Source of the DNA: Catenulispora sp. MAP5-51
Lineage (GTDB): Bacteria; Actinomycetota; Actinomycetes; Streptomycetales; Catenulisporaceae
Reading direction: 5' to 3'
Assembly: GCF_041261205.1 (NCBI RefSeq)
Contig: NZ_JBGCCH010000009.1
Location: forward strand, 248,001-312,000
Length of the DNA: 64,000 bases
In this document: one piece after another, positions 16,181-17,846 of the stretch
Layout of the letters: each line of letters begins with the position of its first letter
Numbering within the stretch: the stretch's first letter is position 1
The notes under the pieces: model-generated
The model's input: only the letters and a program-made list of their open reading frames with translations
What the model was told of the DNA's origin: nothing
Databases searched by the model: none
Program-made: the position numbers and the translations under genes

Positions 16181-16478
16181 ATTCGAGGGCTTCACGATTT
16201 CTTAAGAATTCTCGGCACTGGTCAAAAACGCGTCTGTGAGAGGGGGCATACGAGTTACTCACGCGGGTGTAAAGTGCTGCGGGAGATAGGGCGGTTCCGA
16301 TAGGGAATTCGTTCGAGGGTCCCGGAGACGGGGCTCGAGGCGGCTGTGCGCGTGCGCGTCCGCGGGCTCTCACGCCATGTGACCGACAGGGCCCGGATCG
16401 TTCACGTTAACAAGCTGTGACCCGGGTTCTCATCAAGTCACCCTCCCCATCTCCTATGCAGCGTAGTAGATTCCCTGT
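16181..16478. other. Intergenic region before the serine recombinase gene
   Basis: No convincing gene in 298 nt. It is less GC-rich than its surroundings near 16190-16290 and contains the 10-bp palindrome TTCTTAAGAA (16199-16208) 19 nt after the hydrolase stop. The stretch 16400-16470, with GTTCACGTTAACAAGCTGTG, probably contains the recombinase promoter. Confidence 0.4.
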
Positions 16479-17846
16479 GTGGTTGACATGCGAGAGCCGC
16501 TGTTCGCGGCGGGTATCTACTGCTGCGTACCGCACATCGACGATGACGATCAGAGCACTGTCGACGTCCGTGAGCTGAAATGCCGCGAGTACGCGCGGTC
16601 ACGCCGGCTGCGCGTGGCGCCCGCGGCGGTTCAGGCCGACGCCGTCCGCACGGTGTGGAAGACCAAGGGCGTCAAGCCGGGATGGACGGCGACGCTGGCG
16701 GCGGTGGAGCGCAAGAAGATCAATGACCTGATTCTCTACGCGCCCGGTTCCCTGCTGCGCCACCGCGCCCTGGATCTGGTGCGGCTGCTGAACGCCAGCG
16801 AGCGCAACGGGATCGTGCTGCACAGCGTCGGCGACGAGTGGGACCTGGCCGACCCGGCGCAGCGCCGCACCCTGATCGACCGCGCCTCGGTGGCCTGCCG
16901 CGCCGCGCAGGCGGTGTCGCGTGCCTCGCGCGCCGCCCACCGCGGTGCCGCCCTCGCCGGCCGCCCCCACGGCGGCGGACGCCGAGCCTTCGGCTACGAG
17001 GCGGGCATGGGCGAGCCGATCGCGGACGAATCGAAAGTGGTGCGCGAGGTGTTCGCGCGCTTCCTCGACGGGGAGACCCTGCGCGCCATCGCCTTCGACT
17101 TGAACGATCGCAAGGTCCCGACCGCCCTGGGCTCGGCCTGGACGGTCGGCGGCGTCGGCCGCATCCTCGACGCCCCCCGCTACGCCGGCATCCGCGTCTT
17201 CCGCGGCCAGGTCCGCACCGACGACGGCGACTACATGCTCGGCGCCTGGGAACCCTGCGTCAGCATCGAGGAGTGGGAACGCGTCCACACCCTGCGCGCC
17301 GAGGCAGCCCCCCGCCCCAACACCGGCCGCACCGGCGCCGGCCGCTCGGGCTACCTCCTCACCGGCCTGGTCGAGTGCATGGCCTGCGGCCACAGCATGG
17401 TCGGCTCGGTCGTCGGCGGCTACCGCATGTACGCCTGCGCCTCGACCCGCAACCAGCCGCCCGAGGCATGCGCCCGCTCGATCGGCGCGACCTCCTTCGA
17501 ACGGCACGTCCAGCAGGACGCGATCCGCATCCTCCAGGAATGGGACGTGGCCCGCGTGGCCTCCCTCCCGATGGTCGGCAACCGCCGCCCGGACACCCGT
17601 TCCCCGTACGACCCCGAACACGCCGCCTTCGGCGACATCCACGGCGGAGTGGTGGTCCGCTCGGCCTCCGCGATCGACGGCATAGTCACCGGCCCGGACG
17701 CCGGCCAGGACTGGCCCCGCGTACCGCTCCGGCGCCGCGCTGAGGTGCTGCGGTTCCTGTACACGGTGATCCGCGTCGGGCCGAAGACGACGAGCCGGGG
17801 AGTGTTCGACCCGGGGCGGATCGCTTTGGTGCCGCATCCGCTGTAG
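16479..17846 (+). CDS. Large serine-recombinase family protein lacking catalytic residues
   Basis: 455 residues with the usual order: N-terminal resolvase-like domain (about 1-160), 'recombinase' DNA-binding domain (about 165-275; AGRPHGGGRRAFGYE, GETLRAIAFDLNDRKVPT), zinc ribbon (about 285-345; CMACGHSMVG and YACASTR/EACARS) and C-terminal helical part. The nucleophile region, normally YxRxS, reads GIYCCVPHIDDDDQS, with no Arg and no Ser at the expected positions. The DRLxR region reads ILYAPGSLLRHR, so the Asp-Arg pair is also lost. Fold and DNA-binding parts are kept while active-site residues are not. GTG 16479 is used; ATG 16488 is also possible. No attachment site was identified. It may bind DNA without cutting it. 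Confidence 0.85.
   Translation: MVDMREPLFAAGIYCCVPHIDDDDQSTVDVRELKCREYARSRRLRVAPAAVQADAVRTVWKTKGVKPGWTATLAAVERKKINDLILYAPGSLLRHRALDLVRLLNASERNGIVLHSVGDEWDLADPAQRRTLIDRASVACRAAQAVSRASRAAHRGAALAGRPHGGGRRAFGYEAGMGEPIADESKVVREVFARFLDGETLRAIAFDLNDRKVPTALGSAWTVGGVGRILDAPRYAGIRVFRGQVRTDDGDYMLGAWEPCVSIEEWERVHTLRAEAAPRPNTGRTGAGRSGYLLTGLVECMACGHSMVGSVVGGYRMYACASTRNQPPEACARSIGATSFERHVQQDAIRILQEWDVARVASLPMVGNRRPDTRSPYDPEHAAFGDIHGGVVVRSASAIDGIVTGPDAGQDWPRVPLRRRAEVLRFLYTVIRVGPKTTSRGVFDPGRIALVPHPL

Follow-up and report, generated by a model that had tools for sequence, protein, structure and literature searches.

The window, a stretch of 64,000 nucleotides from Catenulispora sp. MAP5-51, contains between the genes for an alpha/beta hydrolase and an ABATE/CGNR regulator a gene of the large serine recombinase type (hereafter A, Table 1), which a first-pass annotation had described as a recombinase-family protein without its catalytic residues, encoded by an uninterrupted frame and not surrounded by phage genes. 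The frame is indeed read through over its 455 residues with neither a frameshift nor an internal stop. Gene order around A is conserved across the genus, the locus being syntenic in six other species-level genomes, and the lack of phage genes nearby is borne out by this genus-wide synteny: A sits in a conserved chromosomal setting and is not carried by a mobile element. Searches against Pfam recovered the Recombinase (PF07508, 66.8 bits) and Zn_ribbon_recom (PF13408, 27.6 bits) domains above their cut-offs and, as a weak pass, the Resolvase domain (PF00239, 25.1 bits against a cut-off of 23.3), so that the DNA-binding domain described as well kept is preserved, as are the four zinc-binding cysteines, which are invariant across A and two paralogues introduced below.

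Table 1. Features of gene A and its upstream region (positions in the window).
Feature	Positions	Strand	Basis and remarks
Candidate operator palindrome ATCTCCTA-N7-TAGTAGAT	16449..16471	.	Conserved in orthologues; core 16451-16469
Presumed -10 box TAGATT; shares bases with the right palindrome arm	16467..16472	+	Read from the sequence
Catalytically dead large serine recombinase, paralogue A	16479..17846	+	455 aa, GTG start
N-terminal resolvase-fold domain with vestigial active site	16506..16958	+	Residues ~10-160; AF2, structure match
YCCVP replacing YxRxS (R8 to C, S10 to P)	16518..16532	+	Alignment
GSLLRHR replacing DRLxR (D67 to G, R68 to S; Arg71 kept; one-residue insertion)	16746..16766	+	Alignment
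Recombinase DNA-binding domain (PF07508)	17025..17303	+	Residues 183-275; Pfam, structure match
Zinc ribbon (PF13408) with C300, C303, C320 and C331 kept	17355..17510	+	Residues 293-344; Pfam, alignment
Short variable linker where intact relatives have the coiled-coil hairpin (missing)	17541..17663	+	Alignment

The AF2 model of A has pLDDT values mostly between 77 and 93 at residues 11-140, and a structure match (VIA) aligned this N-terminal domain with the catalytic domain of the TP901-1 integrase (Z 11.8, rmsd 3.2 over 129 residues). Outside the N-terminal domain the whole-protein model is poor and its C-terminal domains are of low confidence; the recombinase domain was matched to that of phiC31 integrase (Z 10.3, rmsd 2.5). 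Ten close relatives with an intact active site, drawn from Catenulispora and from further genera of its order, read YCRIS...DDDDQ and YHPDRLMRQ; aligned with them, A stays in register with YCCVP in place of YCRIS and PGSLLRHR in place of PDRLMRQ. Ser10, Arg8, Asp67 and Arg68 are thus gone, as the annotation had claimed, and a shifted but present catalytic Ser or Arg, looked for in the same alignment, was not found. Arg71, the only part of DRLxR that is left, and Arg45-like positions are retained, a His is inserted directly after Arg71, and the Cys in the second position of the first motif is ancestral. All three other serine recombinases of the same genome with a readable motif (L005, L009 and L011) retain the Ser.

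A further loss lies past the zinc ribbon, where all intact relatives have a hairpin of about 30 residues (DQxQLxELNQMWTAKEISTAEYRxMRKEITDRIAKAQR and variants). The alignment shows it to be absent from 22 of 22 dead members of the family, those of group D (see below) included, with a short variable linker instead. A phiC31 integrase deprived of its coiled coil no longer recombines DNA, yet it associates with att sites little more slowly (PMC10754689). As judged from the alignment, the missing hairpin is a second loss, independent of that of the catalytic residues, and with both catalysis and the synapsis hairpin gone the family would be unfit for recombination on two counts; the domains that read DNA, i.e., the recombinase domain and the zinc ribbon, remain. 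A is most unlikely to be a functional large serine recombinase, the Ser and Arg of YxRxS, the Asp67 and Arg68 of DRLxR and the coiled-coil motif all being missing.

The genome encodes three such dead paralogues, A in the window, B on contig 27 and C on contig 42, the latter two sharing about 46% identity with A. Together with group D, which stems from two incomplete metagenome-assembled genomes (G005, 90%, and G006, 81% complete), they form a single clade in the tree (support 100/100) in which D splits off first and A next, leaving B paired with C, although long branches leave the placement of D unsure. L034 and L036, the closest relatives with an intact active site, belong to the same genus, and their join to the dead clade is weaker (84/83). 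Directly upstream of these two integrases lies coding sequence similar to the final part of an ECF sigma factor gene, and this sequence may serve as their attachment site. The catalytic motif reads YCCVP in A, B and C and YCRTP in D; the D proteins (L027 in G006 and L028 in G005) have kept Arg8, replaced Ser10 by Pro and lost the fourth zinc Cys, and possibly represent an earlier or a separate stage of decay. A is present in all Catenulispora genomes searched except one assembly that is 77% complete, and in G006 its halves are split over two contigs. Relatives outside Catenulispora were not found with two peptide patterns of the family in one genome for each of 84,980 species, and at 1e-60 the own genome was the sole match when proteins of 394 class-level genomes were searched. 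Viral contigs, queried with an intact relative, yielded no confirmed relative, and phage records contained only distant integrases of about 30% identity.

The homologues are not pseudogenes, an outcome that would have undone the first-pass annotation; their frames are long and open and evolve under purifying selection. Among close A orthologues omega is 0.10-0.17 overall (Nei-Gojobori), whereas a GC-biased neutral simulation on A gave omega 1.0 with a minimum of 0.59 and produced stops in most simulated copies; values are 0.09-0.20 in group C and 0.25-0.33 in group B. On this dN/dS comparison a pseudogene reading of A was ruled out. The dead N-terminal domain (omega 0.05-0.19) is among the most constrained regions of the protein, the recombinase domain reaching 0.17-0.30, and such strong constraint on a domain without catalysis implies a function of its own, which would most simply be dimerisation.

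Immediately 5' of the start codons of A and C stands the palindrome ATCTMCTA-N7-TAGTAG(AT), which in both cases overlaps the presumed -10 box. The upstream regions of the A orthologues have ATCTCCTAT-N3-GCGTAGTAGATT in common right before the start codon, and the C promoters have ATCTACTA-N7-TAGTAG in common in the same place; between orthologues the arms are invariant and the spacer varies. In a search of the 10.9-Mb genome for CTMCTA-N5-8-TAGKAG, the core CTMCTA-N7-TAGTAG (the spacer is always N7 at the A and C sites) was found in two places, one upstream of A and one upstream of C, each 10 bp from the gene start. For two randomly placed sites, the chance that both lie in the 60 bp preceding any of the three family genes is about 3e-10; this estimate leaves out of account that A and C share an ancestor. 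Given this paralogy, and the fact that the palindrome is equally far from a conserved motif in both paralogues, an ancestral promoter common to both accounts for the palindrome being there, but not for the survival of the arms alone. Nine genomes have the A site, and each of the seven genomes with C has the C site. The start codon lies 6 nt downstream of TAGATT, which suggests a leaderless transcript starting at the GTG. A promoter scan found no consensus -35 element or sigma-70 promoter upstream of A, and its promoter is therefore a presumed one. Within the 300 bp upstream of A, orthologues show strong conservation of two further blocks, 16245-16280 (CATACGAGTTACTCACGCGGGTGTAAAGT) and 16375-16420 (around TCGTTCACGTTAACAAGCTGTGAC); neither the region nor its blocks had a match in Rfam. 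A third palindrome site, flanked by an NRPS-like gene and a methyltransferase gene, occurs in G002, G003 and G008 (L123:8435-8453, L124:1151-1169 and L125:5458-5476), has one mismatch in G004 and G009, and is degenerate in the own genome, for which reason we do not claim a wider regulon. Sites with one mismatch elsewhere, considered as regulon members, look like background.

Paralogue B directly follows the ATPase gene of an operon encoding a substrate-binding protein, permease and ATPase (G000, G009 and G004), and in G005 and G006 this position is taken by a group D gene. At L097:5300-11001 the iron-box promoter, the ABC transporter genes (substrate-binding protein, fused permease, ATPase) and the dead recombinase B form one operon. 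The promoters of the B operons bear TTAGGCAATCCTAA-like sequences, which we take to be IdeR/DmdR iron boxes. In G002 (L105) the transporter genes are deleted and B is retained behind the iron box.

We consider it probable, at roughly 0.6, that A and its paralogues descend from a large serine recombinase and have been domesticated as transcription regulators that bind DNA and probably autoregulate. An integrase of this family would have been captured by an ancestor of Catenulispora and would then have shed strand cleavage (the Ser, two Arg and the Asp) together with synapsis (the coiled-coil hairpin), while the remaining protein was kept as a sequence-specific transcription regulator. Its resolvase-fold domain would still dimerise the protein, and the recombinase domain and zinc ribbon could read a short palindrome. 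Bound to ATCTMCTA-N7-TAGTAG at its own promoter and at that of C, A would lie across the presumed -10 box and either repress or modulate its own gene, and paralogue B might serve the iron-box-controlled transporter locus. The DNA-binding or regulatory role that the annotation had suggested is better supported by the lost hairpin, the palindrome at two paralogue promoters and the position of B in an iron-box operon. The further claim, that an integrase lineage has become a transcription-factor family with a dedicated palindromic operator on its own promoters, is tentative and stands at somewhat less than even odds. Against the regulator reading it can be held that no palindrome was found upstream of B, and that a site of 19-23 bp is shorter than the usual att site of about 40-50 bp.

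A further point against it, and the main rival for the binder of the palindrome, is the gene of a BlaI-family repressor that lies divergent from C in 5/5 loci examined and is found with the upstream site in seven genomes. This BlaI/MecI-type protein could bind the palindrome and control C, and A in trans, leaving the dead recombinases to act otherwise on DNA; in keeping with this, another pair of BlaI and M56 peptidase genes, in C. rubra (G004, L126:3990-4011), has the similar 8+8 palindrome ATCTACTA-N8-TAGTAGAT upstream, where it separates the pair from the divergent gene. However, the known BlaI operator core is TACA/TGTA (PMC7253601), which CTMCTA-N7-TAGTAG does not match, and two other BlaI genes of the own genome carry palindromes of the type CTAC-N5-GTAG, nearer to that core. 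A BlaI paralogue of 78% identity, kept genus-wide, lacks the motif upstream, as do about 20 homologues from the order. Moreover, the distance from the site to C is constant whereas that to blaI is variable, and the A site is retained in the incomplete genomes G005 and G006, in which neither C nor its BlaI neighbour was found. We therefore regard control by BlaI as unlikely, and binding of the palindrome by the dead recombinase itself as the leading view and a prediction of this analysis.

It is less probable still, and in our view improbable, that the proteins act as dominant-negative guards, blocking recombination in mixed dimers or on the att sites of incoming related elements. Such a role would fit the strong constraint on the N-terminal domain and the presence of intact near relatives with coiled coils in G002, G003 and G004. 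These three genomes, however, carry dead and intact proteins together, the three paralogues occupy fixed chromosomal loci, one of them as the last gene in a transporter operon, and a guard does not predict the promoter palindrome. A functionless, decaying remnant of an integrated element, to which the lost active-site residues and coiled coil and the absence of phage genes nearby might point, is very improbable, being refuted for group A by the selection test and at odds with frames intact in all near-complete genomes, with synteny and with invariant zinc cysteines. Equally improbable is a recombinase with altered chemistry, e.g., with Cys16 (the Arg8 position, invariant in groups A-C) as nucleophile, given that Asp67, Arg68 and the synapsis hairpin are lost too and that group D keeps an Arg at the position of Cys16.

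A domesticated DNA-binding regulator derived from a large serine recombinase was not found described in the literature searched, which covered few subscription papers, nor is one mentioned in the part covered of a review on recruited mobile elements. If the reading is true, pure DNA-binding regulators can arise from integrases just as they do from transposon nucleases and small resolvases, and the family would be a natural experiment on which parts of large serine recombinases serve DNA recognition as opposed to chemistry and synapsis. It would also supply a short, testable candidate operator and, in its recombinase and zinc domains, a natural scaffold devoid of cutting activity.

With the integrases of phiC31, TP901-1, A118, Bxb1 and SPbeta, A shares the order of resolvase fold, recombinase domain, zinc ribbon and C-terminal region, a match to PHROG 95 ("integrase") and the fold matches to serine integrases; unlike them it has no catalytic Ser, Arg8, Asp67 or Arg68, no coiled coil and no element, and it is inherited vertically. 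Its nearest sequence relatives, L034 and L036 in Catenulispora and L079-L085 in the same order, have DDDDQ and the downstream motifs in common with A, but keep YCRIS, DRLMR and the coiled coil, and the promoter palindrome was not found upstream of these intact integrases. For the proposed mode of action the closest likeness is to Tn3 and gamma-delta, where binding of the resolvase at res autoregulates tnpR as well as tnpA (PMC7157771), i.e., a serine recombinase regulates its own promoter via its sites. TnpR differs in being a small serine recombinase and a still active resolvase, and regulation by A is at present a prediction. A second parallel is TldR, which comprises nuclease-dead relatives of TnpB serving as transcription factors (PMC13418256): an unrelated and RNA-guided protein, but likewise an enzyme of mobile elements that has lost catalysis and gained a regulatory role, as may have happened to the large serine recombinase of Catenulispora.
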